From the NCBI RefSeq assembly GCF_003073045.1, contig NC_037591.1, forward strand, positions 26,507,319 to 26,571,318: DNA of 64,000 nt. The letters run 5' to 3'. The notes below the pieces were generated by a model, which was given only the letters and a program-made list of their open reading frames with translations, was not told the origin of the DNA and made no database searches. This document shows, in pieces, positions 22,480 through 63,615 of the stretch. The DNA comes from Pomacea canaliculata. Its lineage: Eukaryota; Mollusca; Gastropoda; Architaenioglossa; Ampullariidae. A program made the position numbers and the translations under genes. Numbering within the stretch: position 1 is the stretch's first letter; each line of letters starts with the position of its first letter.

Positions 22480-25400
22480 ATGGCAGACGATGTTGTCCTG
22501 GAGCACGAGATTGACCACATTGAGGACATTTTGGTAGACGATGACCCAGAGGCACTGCTCGGTAAGGCATGCTATTCTTTTCTTCATTCTATTTACGTGT
22601 TTGAGTATGCTCGGGGATGATGTGGAGGAGTGATGGTGGCGCACTTGTGTGTGTGTGTGTTGCCAATCCTACCTCTATTCTAATTTCGCTTTTTCAGATT
22701 TGTGGGTGCTGCAGTCCCGGCACAAACATTGTGATATTACTACTGACGTGACGTCACCTGCCTTGAGGGAGGAGGAGCTCGAGGCACTAGAGCGCCATTT
22801 TCTTATCGACGATGTTGCCTCCTGCTTTGCAACCAGTTTGGCAACAGACGCCGAGACCTCCCTGGATGACCCGTCGTCCGAGGTCAGTTTTTTTTTTTTT
22901 TTAAAAGTTCAGAAGCTCAGCTTGCTGAGAGGTACAATATGTTACCTGTAACGGCCAGCTATAAGATGACGTTACAACAGTTGTGGGCTGTGTGTGTGTG
23001 CATATATAAGTCGTAAATATAGGAACTGGCTGGAAAATGACGTCACAGTGCTGTTCATTTCAGAATGGCAGGAGGGCACCTCACAACTCCGTTGATGATG
23101 ATATCGATGAGGTGGAGATGACCCATGGTCAGCAAGTCGAGACGTCACGGTCAGCGGTCCAAAAGGCAAACAAGCGTGATGGATGTTCCTTGTTTGCTCG
23201 AAAGAAGCTGTCTGCAAGCCAAACCTCTCTCCTCCAAAATGGCGCCGAGGTGACATCAGGGAAAAGCACAACATCAGAGAAGCTGTCGCTTTCTAAAGAT
23301 ATTCTCCTTGATGAAGAGAACGAGGGCCTTATCAGCTTTGACCTACCATTTCTGCCGTTGCCAGGACGATGCTATGACGTCACAGAGCGAGACAGCAAGT
23401 TTACGACAACAGAAAGACAAGCGGCAATACCGCCCCCTTCGGTCTCAGTTTTTCAGCGTGCAGAACCAGCGAGTAAAACAACCGAACCATCGCGAACGTC
23501 ACGTGGCGTAACACCCTTAACTCAAGATGAAAATACGCTGCATGATGTGACGCCCTTAGTTGACCACAGCGGTACGTCACACACACATGACATTGAGCAG
23601 TCAGATTTGCGCAGTGCGTCACCACGAACAAGACCGTTTTTGTCGCGTGCACAAGATCAGATAGCGCGTCACCGAAATCCAGTTACGACGTCACTCACAG
23701 TTTCCTATGGAAGAGGAAGTGAGGTCATGAAAGAGATAGGACGTTCTGAGGTAAGTGTCCTATCCTGGCTCAGGAATAGTTTCACGTCTGCTCGGTCGTA
23801 CAATTATTGTTTCAACAGTTTGGTCAACCAGAGGCAATAAAGTCGGGTGGAGTAGAGAGGGGGAAGGGTAGTCAGAACAACTGAAAATGTTTGTGCTGTG
23901 TTTTTGGAGTGGTGAGGGAAAGGAGCTGGGGTAGAGGTAAGACCAAAAAGTAAAATCGTAAAATGTCTAGAGACAGATCAATCATTGACAGACGCCCTCT
24001 TCTTCACCCAATGTTTTCCTTTTTTTGTTTTTCTCTTGTCAAAGCGAGGGTTTGTAACCGAAGCGTACAGGGGCCGGTCGTGAGCGTGCAAAGTGCAAAT
24101 TTGTCGGCGCCGTCTCTGACGTTCTGCCTTGTAGCCGTCTGGTCGCTCCTGTTGTCGTGTTACAACCTCGCGTGTCGTCGGCGCGATCGGAGCGATAGGC
24201 ACTCATCAGGAAAAAATCACTGGGCACTTCAAGTAGCTGCCGCCTACGTCCATCACGGACAGGAACTGACCTTTGAACTCTACTCTTCATTCTTTTTCCC
24301 TTCCTACTGTAGGTGTCTCCAGGCGCGTCTCACACGAGTAAGGTTTCTTGACGCGGCATTCGTTAGTAAGCGATCGAGAGAGAAAGAGAAAAAGAGAAAA
24401 AGGGCTGTAACAGTACAGTAGCGACAGACTTTTGTCAGGCAGAGAGTGATGTCGAGGGGTAGGGTGTGTGTGTGAAGGGGCAGCAGCGGCAGACAATGGA
24501 GGACATCTTGTTGCCCTTTTTGCTGATTGAAGTAACAAAGTTTCGGATCTGCAATCGTCTGGCCTTTAGAAGATTATTTTTGTCGATGTTGTCATCTGTC
24601 ACACAAGAACGGGTGGGAAGTCGGGTGTGGATACAAAGAGTCATCTTCATGCTCTTACAGTTTTCTCGGTCATCGAGTGTCTCCTACCCACAGTCACAGA
24701 TTTCTTCTCTCCGCGCTCTGGTCATTAGACTTGTTGCGTGCGTGAAGACATGAAGTGATAAAGTGAACAAGCGAGTGTTCTTTATGCATAGAAGATCTTA
24801 AACTTGGGAGTGAAAGAAGGATAAACTGATTAATAATGCTGATATGCATGTGTGGAAACCTTTCTACCTGATGATTAAGTTTTGGCTCTTGAGGTGAATA
24901 AATGAGATTATGAAAACCACCGATTCTGTCATAGTCCGCGCTGTCTGGATTTTTTTTCATTTTTTTCCCCATTTCTCACTAGCTGTTTTTGTTTGTTATC
25001 CTGTATCCGACATCTCGATCTCATTTTCTGTATGTCCTTGACTTGTTCTGCTTACCTCAATCTGTCTTCCGCGCTCTAGATTTTCCTCTCACTACATTTT
25101 CATATCCAAGCAAAGTAATTGCTTTGCGAATACATTTTGATAAATTGTTTACTACATATGTCTAGTCTTGTCAAGATGCAGATGTCATGGGTAGCATATA
25201 GTTTATTACGGGAAAACATTTTTCATTTCCAAAATAGTTTCTCACCTCTCTTGCGACGCATTTACCACCGCAGCCATTTTGTAATTTCCAACAGTCTACT
25301 TGAGACCCTAACACCGGTAGTTTTCTTGAACAAGTTTTGTTGTTGTTTATTATTTGCGAGTTCAGACAAAAAAATGTTGCACTATCGTATTATTTCCTAT

Positions 25401-28400
25401 TTCCACGCAGCAGCAGCAACAGCAGCTAAGGAAGATTCAAGAATACCTGGAAACAGTAGACGTCTTCTTGAACTCAGCCTTGAATCCCAGGTCATCCGGG
25501 CAAGTTGTTCGCAGGTGAGATGACGAGTTCATCAATGTCAGCAGGTCTTGTGTTTTGCCCACGCCCTTCATTCTTTTTACTCATTTTTGTTTTTCTCGTT
25601 ACAGCTGTGTCGCCGACGCCCGAGAAAATGTGAGGAAAGCGTTACAAGAGCTTGGTGCATTACAGTCCTGTGACGTCACCATTGACGTTGCATCTCGTGC
25701 TAGGCCACTCAACGACAAAAGCATTACTAGGGTCACGCAGTACGGACACGAAGCGCAGAGAAAAGACAGTCTCGAAGGCATGCGTGTGATGAAACCGGCT
25801 GACCACCTCGGATCACCCCATAGTATCAACGTCATCGCTCCCAAGCCGCCAGGTGCTGACGGTTTTGGCGAGGAAACGACTGCAGCGCCCATAGTTGACT
25901 TGTCGCCATGCCCGTCTGGTGAGCAGCAGGTCGATGAAAGTGACAGCAGCGATGGCACAACGACGTCAAAGACAACGGTGAGGGCGAAACCACCTTTCGA
26001 AGCCCCCGCAACTCCCCAGTCAGTCCCGCTACCCTCCTCCGAGATTGCCCCTCTGAACCCGACTGACGCAGCGGAAGTGACGTTGGAAAGAATCTCAGGG
26101 GAAGATTCCTTGCCTCTGTTGGACCAGAATGCCTTGACGGACATCACGAGCGTTGCCACGGTGTCAGACCAACGTTGGACGTTGGAGGGTAGCTGCGTTT
26201 CAGCTGATATGAGCACTTCTGCGGATGAATCCAGCTATTACTCGGACGACGACGACGACGATGACGAAGACTTGACGGAAAACGGTCTTCTTTGCCCTGG
26301 CGACCGCCACGGCTTCTTTCGCCGCCCTTTACTTGAATTTGGTGCAGGCGACCCGGACGACGAGGTGCTGAGAGAAGAGCGTATTCTTCGGCATCTTGCA
26401 GCTGTCAGGCAGCAGGCAGTGCCCTCTGCCGTCAGAGTGGAGACGGTCGTCACGGCAACGGGGGAGCGCCTAGGCAACCACTTGCTTGCGTTGGATCAGT
26501 CACGTGGTAAAGAGCATGTCAACGTAGGCCACTTGTACCCCTTCACCTCCAAGTCTTCCCATGTTCCCACCCCCTCTTCACTTCAGATGTCGGAATGTGA
26601 CCAGGTGACCAAAGGCGAGGTCAAGGTAGTCGAACGTAGGTCACGTGGGAACATGTCTGATTCGAGTAGTAAGTATATAATAGTATGTCGCATTAGGATT
26701 TATTAGTAACAGATAAATGGATATTAGAAGACTGATGTAACAATAGCGTTAATGTTGAAGGTTTGAGCAGTGCGTCTCAGATTGTAAGCGGCTAGTTGTT
26801 TGTTTGTTTGTTGTTTTTTTTTTGTATGGGTGTGTGCGTGCAAAGGGGCAATGGTAGATTTTAGATGGAGAGATGGTATGTTTAGTTAGAAAGACGATGT
26901 TATGTCAACGATAAATGTAAGGTTGAGTGACACAATTTTCTTTGTGGGAAAAGGACATGTGTTTTAAACAATGGACTTTACCTTAAGTAACCGAAATTTT
27001 TTTTGTGCGATTTACTAATCATGCGACGAAACAACATTAAAAAGTCTGCTTTTGCGCCTGCATTGTACGCACGTGCATATGAGAGAAAAGAAAGCAGACC
27101 ACATTTCTCACCCATATCAATGATGGTGGCCCTTGTTCAGATGCTCGTCCTCGAGGTGGCAGGGCGACCTTCGCTACGTTTGCGCGATTCTTCAGACCGC
27201 TTCAGTCGGTGGCGCTGTTCTCAGCACGACAGATGACATCAGAGGAATTTCAGGACAGTTACGACAAACAGTATGACGCCATTAAGGTCAAGAGGTGTGA
27301 ACTGGACAACGATATACCTTGGGACCAGCTTCAGTTCTCAGTAAGTCGGTAATGTGTAGCTATTCTGTTCTCAGTTTAAAAACAAAAACTTTTATCTTCT
27401 GCCTGTGGCTTTGTGTTCGAATCTTGGTATCTCTGCATCGTGTCTTCCTTCCTGTGAGTGTTTCGCATGTTGAAGAAGATCATCTCGGTACCCACACATA
27501 TCTGTGTCTAAAAGACAATGGCATGAGCACATCTTCCAGAAATGCTTCCTTGAGGGCAGAGATGCGACATGGCCAACGGACAGTCCATTCCAAAGCAAAC
27601 TTTAAGGGAGACTTGAAAAAAAAATTTCGTTACTTGTCGTGAAGGCTGGTCTAAAAATATAGCTTAGTGGTCGCAAAGAAAAAGATAAAGAAGTTCCTGT
27701 GTGCATGTGTCTCCTCTAAGTGTTTTTATTTTCGTTGGCAAAGTGTCTGAAAACGGTGTGATTCTCTCTGGTACTGGCAATATCGCTTTTCTTTGTCAGT
27801 TCGCGTGTTTCCCAATTAAACGAGTTTTTATTTCTCTTATCCCGTGTCTGTCTGTCATTCTAGTAATGTGTCTCTCGGGCTTTTCTGTTGGAGTTTTTAT
27901 GTTTATATCATTGTCCTTCTGTGTGTTTTTGCCTGTCAATACCTTCTCTGTATTTCCATGTTTGCCATTTTCCATGGTTAATAAAACATCTCAATTATAA
28001 TTCCAGGACACTGAAGATGACACAAAGAGCGAGAAAACATGGTGAGTAACCTACCAGTCTACCAATTTAGTAACCTACCAGCTTACCTGTTTACCAACAA
28101 ACTGGACAACTCAATTTTGTAGCACGTGGTCAAACAAACGCTTTTACTTATTATACCTACACATACATGCACATGCATTTTAATTTTTCTGTTCATAGTG
28201 TATATGCACGTGTGTGTAGGTATAAGTCGGAGCGTTTATTTGAGTTGTTCAGTATGTAAGTCCATAGATTTGTTGATAGACAACTCATTTTTAACACTTT
28301 TTTTTTGTTGTAAAACCCACACACAGGCACACCATAGAAAACAAACGATGTTGCAATTAGTTCCTTTAAAAACTGCTTTTACTTTGATTTGAAGGCGTGA

Positions 28401-55308: not shown

Positions 55309-58300
55309 TCAGCTGCAAGTGTGTTCCTCACTGTCTTTATTTTCTGTGGAAATAAGATTCATAGTTCCATTTGCTTGATCAGACTGCTGTATCTCAGACT
55401 GTTCAGCGATGTGTATGCTTCCCACTTTCCTAATAAACTGGTTGATGGTCACATTTTTCTGCACACACTTTTTGCCATCATAAGGTTCCTAAAACATGAA
55501 AACATTTTGATCACTTCAGATACTGTACGGTGTAAAATTTATGCATAAAGAGGCAACTTCGACATTTTTGTCCTTCGGTTAAGAGATCTTTTATGCTCCT
55601 TCTAGGTCATCATGTCATCTATGTCATGTTGCTACTGTCTGTTCAGTCATTCACTTTGTTCTTGTTTAGATACATTCTCAGTCACACAGAGGTCGTGTTA
55701 CACTGGACTGATTACCTGTACATCGATGTGGTACTGTGCGCTGGTCCACAGAGGTACACTACTCCCCTCCTTTAAGTGCGACACAAGTAGATAAGCATCT
55801 AGAGTTGACGGCATCATCTCATTTTGATTTTGTGTACTTTTCAATTTCCAGCCAGGACAGAAAGGACCAAGACATGTGTATTTTACCGCCTGATGTTCCG
55901 TGGAGTTTTCACATGTCACTTGGCTCCAATTAAGGCAAAACGACTGAAAAAGAAACCATCTTGAGGTCAAATTTCTCGTTTCTCGATGAAACAGAAACAG
56001 TTTTCGGTGCATCTTTTCAAGTCTACAAAAACTTGGCTACACTGGGAAATTTACTGTTCTCATACGCTTGAGTCTGTTATTAACGTAAAAATAATCTGTT
56101 TCGTCTATTCAACAGAACTTTTCAGTTTCTGAGATAAACAAAAGTATAAATGCCAGCAACTCAGAACTCAACGTTTTAAATGTCTGCTTCTTACTCCTTT
56201 TTTAAATTTAAACATAACTCTGTCCCTAATGCAGAACCTATTCCAAAAACCTTCAACTTGGTAAAATTCAGAAGACCCCAAAAGTAACAGCTGACGTTTA
56301 TGATTGCTATGACCTCTAGAGAGGTGGTCCAGAGAAATTTTTCTTGTGTAATTGTAAAACTGTACAATACGGGATGCTAAAAGTACATAATTTTGGTGTT
56401 AAAAATTCACTTGCTTGTTTATTTAAGAGCCAGAAGTGTGATAGTCAGAGTATAGCGATCACATAATTTAATTTTTACATTTTATTTATAATTTTATAAA
56501 TAATAATTTATGTGTATAGTTATTAACTTATAACTTATATGTATTTCCTTAGAAATAAATAATAATAATATTTACTTTGGATGCCGTGTGCAGTATTCTA
56601 AAAGCAAAAAAGAAATTTTATAATTCGAATCATCATGCCACGACATACTCTTGGTGATAATTTGGTCACAAAAAATATTCCTCACAAAATCTATCACTGT
56701 CTTTTCAGTATCTTGTGGTTTGTTATAATGTTTCACAAAGTTTTACCGTTGTGGGTACAAGAGTTTCTATGAACTGCCACAGATTTGTTTGTTCATCGTC
56801 GATGATCAGGTCCACTTGCAGTTCAGCTGGTGTCAGGACCTTCCTGAGTTGAAAGGTAGAACTCAAGACTCTTGTATATGAATTGAGCTCCGGTTTTGTC
56901 TGCGTGTCACAGAAAATAGTCTTTAGAATTTTTCAAGATAGTATTTATGACCGTATCTTACCATATCCCTTTTCACATTGGCTAACATGACACAAAATCA
57001 TGAATACTTATAAAGGTGTGCACAAGCAGGAGCAGCAAAATATCACAAAAACATCATGCGAGGCACGAAGAAGTTGCTCGAATTATATATGAGTTATATG
57101 ACACTTTCTCATTGTATCATTCATAAATATTTAACTACATTTTAGATTTTTCTTCTTTACCTTAATGTTTACATATTATTTATTCCTGTCCTCATCACGA
57201 CACCCATCCGTTTAGCTAACCAAAAATTCAAACCGTTGAAAAATACAGCTTAAATGCTACTTTCTGAATTATTCCATATTTAACTTTGGGGTGCTTTACC
57301 TCTCTGAAGTCTTTAAGATGCAACTTGTCCCAGAAGTGCGTTACAATGGAGACGTTAAGTGAGCCGTTTTCTCGCTTGTGAGACTCGTACACCTCCAGGC
57401 CGATGTTCAGACACAGGCCACAGTACGTGCACACGTACCCACTGAAATGCGACGTCATCACTTCTACCCGTCCTCCTTCATTTACAGCAAAATAGGCTTC
57501 TGTACTCTTATTGCCCGGAGTCTCCGAAAGCTGATCCAACCTTTTCAATTTGCTAAAATCCACTTGCCCTTCAGGATTTTGAGATATGCAGTAGACGTGG
57601 AGAAGATTGATGTCATATTCAGAAGGTAGGCAGGTAGGCAAGGTGAGCTGAACGTGTTTATGGAAGTGAAAGTCCGGACCTGCCCAGAACTCAGCCAATG
57701 GGCTGACGATGGTTTCTGTGGCAGGCAGCTGTAGTTTGTACTTGATGTAGTCGTCATCAGTGCAAATGGCAGAGTAAACTGTGACGTTTTTGTTGTCCTC
57801 TATAGCACCTGCTGGGACCTGAAGAACAACATCAGATCCTTGTCTCTGTAGTCTGCCTCCTTCAGTTGTGAAGCGGACACCGTCTTGCCAATGATCTCTG
57901 AATATAGGTGACTGAGCGAGGTTCTCGAATTTCTCAGCAGCGTTTTCGTTTCTGTGCCTTGCATTATTATCATTGTTTTCTAAAGAGTCCACGATGTGTT
58001 GTGAACTTGGTGTTACACTTAGGTCAGCTGTGAATTTATACGGAACTGAGTAGCACGAGCAATCGGCGTCGAAGAAAGTGCTTTGTGATTTCACATCGTC
58101 TTCCTCTTTCTTAAGGCATTTATCCAAGGCATCATGTTCCTCTCTGTTTTTCTGTTGGATCTCTTTAGTATCTTTCTTTTCGTAATGTAGTTGCTTTTCG
58201 GCTGAATCAAAGGAATTTTCATGAATACAACGTGATACAATATGTCAGCGACGAACTGTTTCACCAATACTGAAATAACCTAGCAAGTAATAAAGCCAAA

Positions 58301-61300
58301 CACTTTTATTTTACTTCTACCAAGCTAGGCACTAAGACATATAAAATATATAAATATAAGCCATGAAAACTACGCTGTCGTTTTTTCAACAAGCCCGATA
58401 ACAACATAAAGTATTGTATTTTCTAATTCATGTGTTCTTTTGGGCTGTCTACGACAGATGCATGCTGTATTTTGATCTACAATGTTCTGTTGTTATGCTG
58501 TCGACTTTGGTCAACGAAAAATAATAAACCCTTAACATATTGCAGAATGATGTAAAAAAAAATCAGGAAACATACTAAAAAGTTTCCAGTGCCAAGATCC
58601 CTGGAACTTGCAAAGCCGCGTGTTAGGAAGAGTGACTGTATATAATAAAATAAGTTCTGTGTCATGATAACTAAGAATAGGGCTTTAGTGTTGGTTCCGC
58701 ACTTCTGCTCCCTCCACACGATGAGCGGACGCGCTGGTAAACGGGCTGTCATAAGGTGGGTAACTGTGGGGATGAGTTAGCAGTTGAGATGACGTAACGT
58801 TAGTGACAGTAGTCGGCCTTTGGCGGAACTGGACCGTCGGATGGACAAAAGGCCAAGAAGTCTCGCCACTGTTTATCTCCCTTGAATCAGAGGCCTGTGA
58901 ATCACGGACCGCTTACGTCACCACGGACATAGCGCAGGGTGGGGCCAGAGTGGAGATCTCCAGTAGCGACAACTGCCGTCCCGCATTCTGGCCCCGTAAG
59001 GCCGCGGTACACCTAGAGCAGGACAACAGCGCTGCTTGTTATTGCCACCGACTGGACACAGGTAGTGAATAGGAAGTCAGGATGGCGCCACAGTCGCAGA
59101 TCGCGTTACTGGTGAGGAGGGGAGAGAAGGGAGTGTACTGTGGTCAGGGGTCAGTAAAAGTGACCATCTGTCCATCATGTGTTAGATACGTAGTGATTGG
59201 ATGAATCAGAATGGCTGAAAGTGTGTAGCATGCTTGACCAATCAGAGAGGGTGATCCTCGCAGATGAGGATTTACCATCGTGACTGGCTAGGAATCGTTG
59301 TCTTCGCACTGGGCTCTCGAGGAGTAAAGTTGTAACAGAGGTCTGTTCAAGGCTGTTCAGATTCTCTGCTTTGAGTCTGTCTTGAAATCGTGACTACTAC
59401 AGCACAACTGACTCAAGAGGTGCGTAAGACCCACTCTACCACTGAGTGCACAACACTTTGGTAGCAAACAGTAGAGGATTAGGCTGGTAGATAACCGTTC
59501 GTCCCTGTTAGGCGCTGTTAATATCGAGACAGCAGTCCGGCCTACAGGACGAGAGAGACACGTGGTGACACTCGGCAGTGCCAGAGTCTCAGCGCTCGTG
59601 AAGGAGGCCGCAACGATCGACGGAGTGACATCAACGGATTCTCGGACGTCAGCAACATCGGATGGCCCTCCACGTGGCAAGAGACTTTGTGTGACGAAAT
59701 AAGAGGCGAGTGTGTGTTACACGAGTGTAGTCTACTGTGTGTAGTAGTTAAGGTGGCAAACAATACCTGGACCAGGCATAGGGAAGTTAACGGGACACCT
59801 AGAGTACAGCCATCTTTGGAATTGTATCATTTATAAACTCATTAATAATTTTTTATTACACATTTGCAAGCCTTGCGTCTGTTATTGGGGACGCGCGCTG
59901 GGGGCTCAGAGTCAAGTAAAGTATAATTAGCAATTTAGAGTAAGTGTGCGCGTGCAGTATGTGTCGGCGAGAGTGGGTAGAGGTAGGACTACTCAAAACT
60001 ATTTGTTGTGACCAAATCATGCGATACAAACTCTTCGTATCTTTTTGTAACATTACAATGTTTTCTCATTGTCAATGGTTGTACATTTTCATTACACTGA
60101 TTTTCGCATTTTATTGACTTGTCGTGTTGCAAAATTCTGCATCAACGAAAAGTATACGTCGGCAAAATTATTAAAATTTATAATAATAGGTTGTGACAAT
60201 TTTGTATTGAGAAAGTAAGGTGACAATTCTGCAACATCTTGTCAATAAGTGTCGAGATTTATTTCTGATTGTGTTATTGCCTTTTCTTATTTTATTTTTG
60301 AGTATTTTTCTTTGTTTGCAAGAAGTAGAATTTTACGCCCGTTCATGTCATGAGTAAATTCTGGTCAACATTGCATTTCATTGTTGTCTTCTGCATTATA
60401 AAGGTATTAAGAATAACGAGAATGTTATTGTCCTCCTTTTTCAGAAAAGAACAGGGTCTATATAGATATGAAATACATGAAAATCCTAGAGAAAAAACCC
60501 AATGAAAACAGATTATTTACAGCAAAGGCTAATTCACAATATTTCTATCTCTAATTTCCATTTTTCGGAGTTTGACATCTGTTGGTACTTAATACCAAAA
60601 TGTCACATACTTAAATATATCTAATGTATTTTAAACTGGTATGTTGTTCGAAGTTTTACTGTTATCATTGTACAAATAAACAAATATCTTGGTTTGGGAC
60701 ACATAACTGAACAACCGTTTGTTATTGCTTAAATAGAAATTTCTCTACAATCATGACATGGCTCTATCTCAGTTTACATCCCTTTAAACCTCTTTCTTTT
60801 CAAAACTTTTCACCCCTCAAAAAAGACAAACCTCTGAAGGTGATGTACACCAGCTGCGACGTGCACCGGGATATGGCAAGAACTCCAGCATCTTCAAGCT
60901 CATCAACGATGACGACTACTACTTTTCTTTCAAGACCGCGAACATCTTCTTCATCTGCAACTACCACCTCGTCTTCACGTGCCGTGATGATGTCCTCGCA
61001 GTTATCACTGGTCATGTACCGGACAGGGATACCCGCCTTTCTCAGTCCTGTCTCCAGGTCCATGAAGTACCTGACATGAATACTGGGCAGTACTAGCACG
61101 TCTCTGTACTGCAGGCGCACAGATGTTGTGTCGCTTGTGGTGTGAGCGATAGCAGTAGATGTGGTAATATTTCCTGCAAATATTCAGTTTCTTGCATTAA
61201 ATACCCCGATAAAAAAAAAAAAAAAAACAAACAAAAACCAATCAGTAGTGTTAGCAATGAAATAGACTGGCACCACTCAATTAGGGCAATAAAACCATTT

Positions 61301-63615
61301 GACAGTTTAACGCACTTCTTTTAAATAAGATATTGTTAAATGTGATATACAGTGATACCTCGGTTCTCGAACATAATTCGTTCCGGGAGGACGGTCGAGA
61401 ACCAAATTGTTCGAGAACCGAAGCAATGAAACCCAAAGGAAATAATGGAAACTGGATTAATTCGTTCCAAGCCCCAGAAAATGCCTATTTACTGGCCTAA
61501 TTTGTATATAATATGTAAAAAAAAAAAAACATGAGTCTCAACAAGAAATAAGAAATAAAAGTGTATTTATTAAACAAAAAAAAAAAAAAAAACACACAAA
61601 AATAAATAAAATGTACTGTACAGTACAGTAAACTGTGTTTCATTTACTGTACCTGTACCAAACTTTATGGCAGGAGGAATGAATGTGGAGGAGGAGGGAA
61701 GGGATGGTTATTGTTTTGAAGGGGAGTCCTCTTCAATAAAAACAGAGGGTAACTGCTCTTCGGTGTTTCTGTTCTCTGTATCTTTTGCTGAGGAGAATCA
61801 GAATCTTGCTCTGCAGTTGCTTGTCTGATTTCTTTACGGAAGAATTTGTCAATTGTTTGCTGTTTTTTTCTCCTTTGCAAAATTTTGCTGAAAGTGGACA
61901 TAACATTGTCATTAAAAATGTTAACTGCTCTATTTGCTACCACTTTATCAGGGTGATGTTGTTCAACAAAATTTGCGATTTCTGCCCATTTTGCACACAT
62001 TTCATGACTCTCTCCACAAAAACGTCACTCCCTCTCTCTCTCTCTGCACTCACACTGATGACGCAAGCAAGGCGCGCTGGGCCCAATGAACGCCATTCGG
62101 CTCAACTCGGCTCATCTCGGACGTTCGGATGTTCGAGTTCCAAATATTTGTTCGGATTCCAAGAAAAAATTTTCTCGAATTTCCTGGTCGAATACCGATT
62201 TGGTCGAAAGTCAAGGCGTTCGAGAACCGAGGTATCACTGTATATATATATCACAATTTTTCTATTCAGACATACACTTTTTTGAAAAGCACTTAAAGCT
62301 GCCAAACCTTACAGAATGCTTTAGCATGCAAGTGGCGTATGGACTGTGGTGGAAGAAAACTACTTCAAAGAACGAGTTGAAATTAGTCTTTTTTTCATCT
62401 TGATTAAATGAACACTGGAAATAATATTACAAGAAACGTACACTGACCTGGAACACCAGCAAGAACGTGCAATAGGATCTTTGCCACGTGCTCACCGCAC
62501 GTGACACAACGGTTGATACATCGCGTGCTCCTGTGACTGCCTTTGTGTTTTGGGAGAGGGAATCGCTGGACTGGTGGACCACGCGGACTCTTATATTCCC
62601 CACGAAGGCTGTAAGTCTTTGAATTATGGTCTGCGACAGTCGATATACGTTCAAGTTCCATCTTCACAGTCTCCGGAAAGCGGATGGGTCTGGTTAAATT
62701 TTGAACCTGCCAGCTCGACTGTACAGACTCGGGATAATAGCTTGCCGCCCAGAAATGAAGATGTGGAACTTGTGTCAGTAACTCTTTGTGGAACGCTTGT
62801 AAGTAGGAACTGTTAAAAGATTTAAAGAGATATAAATATATTTATACTTACTAAATAGACGTATGAATTTTTGTGTGTCTATGTGTGTATTTTTTAATTT
62901 GTAAGTCTAATTATTGTGATGTTGGTTTAAAATTATAATAAATGAAGTTTAAAATGCTGCATATAATAAAGTCTCAGAGAACTGAGCAATTATTTTTGTC
63001 CTAATCATGCATGCAAACGATCGCTGCTTTTACTACCTTCAGAAATTTTTCACTTCTGAACATTCCATAGTAGTGATGGGACAACTCTGACTTTTACATT
63101 TTAATTTTTTATCAGCCGTCTCTCATTGCACTCATTACCTGAATGAGTCCATTTGATCGGCGATGACGTGCAGCACTCCTCCAGTTGCCGCTTGCGATAA
63201 GTCCCTCACAGCATTCTCGACATCACTATTTGTTCCAAACCTATACTCCAGAAGGTGAAGCTGTCCAGATGTCCCAGTGGGCGCCAGTTGTGTCTCTATA
63301 GTCTGCTGCAGCAGGTAGTACATCCTGTAGCACGCTGCACACCTGTCCGAGGTGCAGACCAAGAAGACATCGCTTCCACATCTCAGCCATTCTGTGGCCT
63401 TTAGCTGCAACACTAAGGTTTTACCTGTACCAGGAGGTCCAGCCAACATGACCCTTGGAGATGTCATGGTCAGCAGGTGAACTTGCTCCGGAAACAATGT
63501 AATAACAGCATAAGAACACTGTGTCGTGGAGGGCGAAGGTTGATTCAAGATTTTAAGGCACAGGCGTGGAGGCGATATGCATGGAATGGTCACCGTAACC
63601 GCGGTACCATAGAAC
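55309..63615 (-). CDS. P-loop NTPase (SF1-like) fused to ZU5 and UPA-like domains, 3' part
   Basis: Seven exons (5' to 3'): 63615-63139, 62809-62448, 61173-60832, 58201-57234, 56899-56747, 55943-55716, 55488-55309. All six junctions keep phase, giving 902 residues to the TGA; the 5' end lies past the right edge. Numbering from the first whole codon: LFPEQVHLL (40-48) resembles a Q motif; GPPGTGKT (59-66) is Walker A; VLHVIADQMD lies where motif II should be but lacks the usual DE; VRGLERKVVVVI and AISRCTSQLVYI resemble SF1 motifs V and VI. A Cys/His cluster lies in exon 2. A charged linker (about 394-430) leads to a ZU5 domain (about 500-618; VVLQVPAGAI), then HFS (645-647), then a beta-rich UPA-like tail. 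No death domain is seen. The layout suggests an intracellular sensor or signalling protein. The ZU5 and P-loop are clear; the SF1 and UPA assignments are inference. Confidence 0.85.
57235..57245 (-). other. alternative in-exon donor considered at the ZU5 exon end
   Basis: The chosen donor is ACG before GTTTGA (exon ends at 57234). An alternative donor AGAG before GTAAAG near 57300 would leave phase 1 and run into a stop in the next exon. The chosen one keeps phase 0 and retains the VAFKLYFST strand, which fits the downstream fold. Confidence 0.5.
57441..57449 (-). other. His-Phe-Ser tripeptide, candidate autoproteolysis site
   Basis: Codons CAT TTC AGT in the frame of the ZU5 exon, within MTSHFSGYVCTYC, directly after the ZU5 core. 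PIDD1 is known to cut itself at HF-S sites, and NLRP1 and CARD8 at a related F-S site in their ZU5-UPA (FIIND) modules. Cleavage here is inferred from motif and position only. Confidence 0.55.
58202..60831 (-). other. 2.6 kb intron between NTPase and ZU5 halves
   Basis: This phase-1 intron separates the NTPase module from the linker and ZU5 exon. It holds a GC-richer block at about 58690-59800 that includes a possible plus-strand exon (58891-59061). Beyond 59800 it is AT-rich with nothing recognised. Confidence 0.6.
58891..59061 (+). other. possible plus-strand internal exon or relic
   Basis: Bounded by a good acceptor (pyrimidine-rich then AATCAG) and a GTAGTG donor, this segment is open in one frame and reads like protein: RTAYVTTDIAQGGARVEIS, then DNCRPAFWPRKAAVHLEQ, then SAACYCHRLDTG. 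It has four cysteines and GC-rich codons. No partner exons were found on that strand, so it may be a transposed or pseudogene fragment, or chance. Confidence 0.25.
61350..62240 (-). mobile_element. Tigger/pogo-type DNA transposon, internally deleted, 891 bp
   Basis: The two ends are perfect 23-bp inverted repeats, each with CAGTGATACCTCGGTTCTCG at its outer end, and are flanked by TA target duplications (61348-61349 and 62241-62242). The inside carries only the C-terminal remnant of a Tigger-type transposase. It sits in the intron between exons 2 and 3 of the NTPase-ZU5 gene. The identical ends suggest fairly recent insertion. Confidence 0.9.
61665..62000 (-). pseudogene. Tigger-type transposase C-terminal remnant
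   Basis: About 110 codons, with WAEIANFVEQHHPDKVVANR followed by AVNIFNDNVMSTF and a Lys/Gln-rich tail ending in a DKFF motif. These match the end of Tigger/Jerky-type transposases as remembered. The DNA-binding and DDE catalytic parts are missing, so it is inactive. Confidence 0.75.

Follow-up and report, generated by a model that had tools for sequence, protein, structure and literature searches.

Does the minus-strand gene at the right-hand end of a 64,000-nucleotide stretch of the Pomacea canaliculata genome (RefSeq assembly GCF_003073045.1, contig NC_037591.1, here C2:26507319-26571318; the window) make one protein from a superfamily 1 (SF1)-type nucleoside triphosphatase (NTPase) and a ZU5 domain, and what kind of system would that protein represent? 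An earlier note, made from the sequence of the window, had raised this pairing. Our answer, held with moderate confidence, is that the locus represents a single unit within a tandem array whose genes encode NERD (nuclease-like), SF1 NTPase, ZU5 and UPA-like parts in that order, that is, a Schlafen-like sensor with a FIIND-like autoproteolytic switch. This reading draws on features established by sequence: the order of the units, their open frames, a predicted SF1 fold, the ZU5 domain, a conserved His-Phe-Ser (HFS) motif and the differing tempo of the two halves.

The array extends beyond the window, which carries unit A1. A ZU5 profile search of the genome gave 20 places, of which nine share the minus strand and lie within 0.37 Mb of C2 (26.56-26.94 Mb). 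The sequence that we read, 200 kb adjoining the window on its right and an 8-kb region with one more unit, covers six of the nine ZU5 units, and NTPase exons 1-3 stand upstream on the same strand in all six. The NTPases are of two kinds, A (window-like) and B (P0003-like); a unit usually runs NERD-NTPase B, NERD-NTPase A, ZU5 and tail, and unit B5 has B alone before ZU5. The nine A and B copies used in a 38-row tree form a single clade (100/100) beside other Pomacea members, which fits a single origin of the pairing. B-type exon 3 ends in the donor ACAG|GTCAGA, and in B1-B4 it is followed, after an intron of 200-208 bp, by a linker exon lacking Met (L010, L015, L019 and L024); this suggests, from sequence, that one chain carries both heads, B and A, as a double NERD-NTPase. 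A further double of this kind is P0002, encoded on another chromosome.

The seven exons of the window gene (Table 1), running from 63615 to 55309, all have AG/GT borders and join in a single frame whose only stop is terminal, as the earlier note had described; the two other frames of the same join hold 54 and 42 stops. The product has 880 residues, not the 902 first counted. Exon 1 is the first visible exon only, and the gene starts upstream of it. In a protein search the NCBI protein LOC112555545 (P0001, 998 residues) was 100% identical to the window product over the shared stretch. It has identical exons 1-5, including the join 60832/58201 that had been singled out for doubt, and then continues past the end of exon 5 into the intron. 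Its first 177 residues map 2,951-3,481 bases past the right window edge (C2 26574269-26574799), to a frame between the NERD and NTPase exons that is transposon-like in our judgement and is possibly a real fusion start. Because of that N-terminal piece and the read-through end, the model alone proves little. Exons 6 and 7 are backed by the paralogues P0004 and P0008 and by four sister units. Scored with a donor table, the joining intron has the weakest donor of all six (5.29 bits versus 5.46 to 8.47), and another in-phase donor lies at 60813 (4.13 bits).

The joining intron is where the gene might divide. The NERD-NTPase and ZU5-UPA parts could be two neighbouring genes alternating in tandem and joined only by annotation programs, an arrangement that we consider improbable. 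Evidence against it comes from the closest sister, unit A6, which can be aligned with the window over NTPase exon 1 to exon 4. Over 2,083 exon bases the two show no indel, and the splice sites are kept, whereas introns 1-4 (the fourth in part) show 31 indels, whose length in 28 cases is not divisible by three; joining intron 3 is 92.8% identical, with 20 indels. The linker before ZU5 is under constraint in both the window and A6 and has no Met in either, so translation must start upstream, which makes one gene likelier than two. Two genes would also have to accommodate exon borders that are in phase, a spacing of 704-716 bp that, in three units, offers no good first exon, a read-through stop that shifts among A1-A4 from 5 to 19 codons past the border, and a candidate ZU5 start exon that carries no sign of constraint. 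A single gene, as first proposed, is therefore quite probable on sequence grounds.

The first half of this gene was originally likened to the helicase part of Schlafens, and the comparison stands: the predicted structure has an SF1 core fold, and Schlafen helicases (SLFN11/14-like) are among the nearest solved structures. A hidden Markov model search against Pfam, recommended as a check, gave AAA_19 at 25.2 bits (cut-off 25.1) in this half and ZU5 at 36.6 bits (cut-off 21) in the other. In exon 2 a Cys-x2-Cys with preceding His residues is a possible zinc knuckle by sequence; its cysteines (Cys578 and Cys581 of P0024) are invariant in alignments A1 and A2. Extension past the right edge, also recommended, disclosed a NERD domain upstream, recognised in the array by likeness to P0003. 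Unit A6 carries its D...ExK residues of PD-(D/E)xK type (GDFDLLIIH..YGLVVCEVK), which are also present in units A1, A3, A4 and B1-B4 and are disturbed in A2 and B5. Among 14 NERD-NTPase proteins scanned, only P0003 (28.5 bits) exceeded the Pfam NERD cut-off, five others fell short of it, and in eight NERD was unseen; the Schlafen core (AlbA-type RNase) was not among the Pfam families matched by sequence in these 14 at E 0.1 and E 0.05.

The array may be a sensor family of which the window copy is a decaying member that has lost nuclease activity and ATP hydrolysis and is perhaps no longer functional. We regard this, which is compatible with the sensor-switch reading, as a serious but lesser possibility. 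The NERD exon of the window unit keeps its D...ExK residues and then loses frame, and the transposon-like reading frame lies between the NERD and NTPase exons. The catalytic Walker B Asp-Glu is absent, with Asp-Gln in its place. A pattern search finds Asp-Glu in 84 of the 90 family proteins that are C-complete (reaching position 650 of the 688 in the model), and in A6 the NERD exon is open and includes GDFD...CEVK, Walker A reads GPPGTGKS and Walker B is Asp-Glu. Because of this Glu to Gln change the window copy, if expressed at all, would probably bind ATP without hydrolysing it. Against decay, the NTPase and ZU5 exons are fully open and free of indels relative to A6, and errors of assembly may account for the indels seen in the A1 and A2 NERD exons.

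Rates of change bear on the same question. Between the window and A6 the ratio of nonsynonymous to synonymous divergence (dN/dS) is 0.74 in the NTPase exons, which does not differ from 1 (p 0.19) and counts in favour of decay. The ZU5 exon gives 0.21 (p 1.1e-5). Constraint on the ZU5 exon pair is thus clear and speaks against decay, though it counts the change on both branches. The contrast between the halves has p 0.01-0.02, depending on the rounding of fractions. A fast head on a constrained switch is what a sensor would be expected to display, but relaxed constraint on the NTPase head would produce the same pattern. Synonymous divergence (dS) between A1 and A2 is 0.07-0.10 for NTPase exons 1 and 3, against 0.75 for the ZU5 exon, and between A1 and A3 it is 0.09-0.11 and 0.67, respectively, while between A1 and A6 it is even over both halves (0.09 and 0.10). 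These values suggest homogenisation or exchange of the NTPase parts between units.

The second half bears a Phe-Ser cut-site motif at the end of its ZU5 domain, as in autoproteolytic ZU5-UPA proteins, a feature that the earlier note did not mention. HFS is identical in all six array copies read, and HFSGY is invariant in the ten rows of alignment A6. Of the ZU5-UPA-like module first described, the ZU5 domain and a further segment after it hold up; exons 4-7 gave no Pfam match to UPA, and the model of the part after HFS has a predicted local distance difference test score (pLDDT) below 50. The statement that the visible part ends without a death-fold domain agrees with our Pfam searches by sequence, in which neither exons 4-7 nor the P0004 tail matched a death-fold family. 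It is doubtful, in our view, that the ZU5-UPA part acts in scaffolding or guidance, like the modules of UNC5, ankyrin and ZO-1, and neither cuts itself nor serves immunity. Its best solved matches by sequence profile are indeed the ZU5 of ZO-1 (36 bits) and UNC5B (15 bits), and these searches with the ZU5 part returned no FIIND protein. Against a scaffold, HFS is invariant amid otherwise variable sequence, and one report gives UNC5b a Leu at the position of the CARD8 cut-site Phe (PMC3210808).

The NTPase of the window gene is, by sequence comparison, a member of an expanded gastropod family. A profile of ten relatives recovered 112 proteins among the best 7,999 candidates scored, and the species-named members in this search are all gastropods (Pomacea, Littorina, Babylonia, Nucella and Batillaria); 133 of the 139 proteins collected over all searches match the NERD-NTPase profile. 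Six of the 90 C-complete members have tails longer than 100 residues, and HFSG is present in one (P0001) and absent from 89. Other N-terminal parts occur in the family, namely an Ig V-set (P0018, 37.7 bits) and KH (P0023, 42.9 bits); P0015 and P0020 likewise have Ig-type or KH-type parts, the Ig matches of P0015 being below cut-off. The ZU5-HFSGY module is found again in Batillaria P0030 and Elysia P0032, neither of which has the NTPase of the window gene. In P0030 it is preceded by weak SH2 and STAT-type matches that stay under their cut-offs, and P0030 is possibly a STAT-ZU5 protein.

The most familiar self-cleaving ZU5-UPA switches are those of mammalian inflammasome sensors. In NLRP1, CARD8 and PIDD1, as in the window gene, a sensor part is followed by a ZU5 with an F/S self-cleavage motif. 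The putative sensor of the window gene is NERD-SF1, whereas theirs are NACHT and leucine-rich repeats (LRR), LRR or a disordered region, and no death-fold domain was recognised by sequence at the C-terminus of the window gene product. The cut motif is HFS in PIDD and SFS in CARD8 (PMC3210808), and CARD8 cuts itself into an N-terminal ZU5-bearing fragment and a C-terminal UPA-CARD fragment, activation being tied to degradation of the former (PMC9213247). By analogy, NERD, SF1 NTPase, ZU5 and tail would be translated as a single chain, of which the fast-evolving NERD-SF1 half, its predicted SF1 domain resembling that of SLFN11 and SLFN14, might recognise foreign or misplaced nucleic acid or pathogen activity. 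ZU5 would cut itself between Phe and Ser, with the C-terminal part staying bound non-covalently. Sensing, an ATP-driven change or destruction of the N-terminal part would free the UPA-like tail, which might signal by self-assembly or recruitment as in NLRP1 and CARD8.

Bacterial NERD-helicase defence proteins also place NERD before an SF1-type NTPase, but they lack ZU5, and the snail genes are animal genes with introns. PADLOC matches to them are weak and mostly local to the P-loop: NERD+UvrD at E 0.055 (P0013), and RTasNERD-Hel at 0.00089, Nhi at 0.0018 and GajB at 0.0086 (P0026). Expanded lineage-specific invertebrate families are described as attaching FIIND or UPA-ZU5 to immune domains via TRADD-N (PMC8195603); their junction runs through TRADD-N, and in the main text of that paper 'nerd' and 'sf1' occur 0 times. 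In the open-access literature we found no description of NERD with helicase in metazoans or in molluscan or invertebrate immunity, of ZU5 in Pomacea canaliculata, or of Schlafen with ZU5; for ZU5 in gastropods it offered a shell-proteome study. What appears new is the NERD-SF1 head on a predicted self-cleaving ZU5 switch; FIIND or UPA-ZU5 on other immune domains was already known in invertebrates. An intact motif in a mollusc, joined to a module like those of Schlafens and bacterial NERD-helicases, suggests repeated coupling of the switch to different sensors. Within the array, sensors change while the switch stays constant, which provides natural replicates for direct tests.

A bolder extension, which we think unlikely, is a separate class of animal intracellular sensors in which a NERD nuclease and a Schlafen-like SF1 NTPase (two heads in series in most units) would control the self-cleaving switch. 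Output would pass through a C-terminal strand-turn-strand assembly motif (PVINIENVHGDVTFAQQ-like, RHIM-like) replacing the death fold, and tandem recombination would swap heads and switches between units. The RHIM-like segment as the signalling element of the tail is a guess.

Table 1. Coordinates of the window gene, in window positions
Feature	Position	Strand	Remarks
Exon 1 of visible part	63139..63615	-	N-terminal half of SF1-type NTPase core; open frame, AG/GT borders; also in LOC112555545
Walker A GPPGTGKT	63417..63440	-	G, P, P, G, G and K columns invariant in 15-row alignment A1
Walker B pair Asp-Gln	63153..63158	-	Most relatives Asp-Glu
Exon 2	62448..62809	-	NTPase, with possible zinc knuckle; open frame, AG/GT borders
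Exon 3	60832..61173	-	NTPase C-terminal half; motifs conserved in 15-row alignment A1; AG/GT borders
GLERKVVV, which we take to be motif V	60914-60937	-	Exon 3, conserved in alignment A1
SRCTSQL, presumably motif VI	60851-60871	-	Exon 3, conserved in alignment A1
Joining intron 3	58202..60831	-	Between NTPase exon 3 and ZU5 exon 4
Exon 4	57300..58201	-	Acidic linker, ZU5 domain, HFS motif, start of post-cleavage part
ZU5 domain (PF00791)	57624..57872	-	Residues 111-193 of exons 4-7; Pfam 36.6 bits, cut-off 21
His-Phe-Ser of VEVMTSHFSGYVCTYCG	57441..57449	-	Predicted self-cleavage site between Phe and Ser
Exon 5	56747..56899	-	Piece of putative UPA-like segment; homologous exons in four other units
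Exon 6	55716..55943	-	C-terminal segment; identity to P0004 61%, P0008 59%
Exon 7 and stop codon	55309..55488	-	Last exon of joined frame

Two further observations concern the window itself. Intron 2 contains an insertion of about 0.9 kb (61360-62240) with matching inverted ends (CAGTGATACCTCGGTTCTCGAAC), where sister unit A6 has an 893-base gap; in our judgement it holds a reading frame like a transposase tail. Two long open frames of 276 and 395 residues lie at 23010-26706 on the plus strand, opposite to the NTPase-ZU5 gene.
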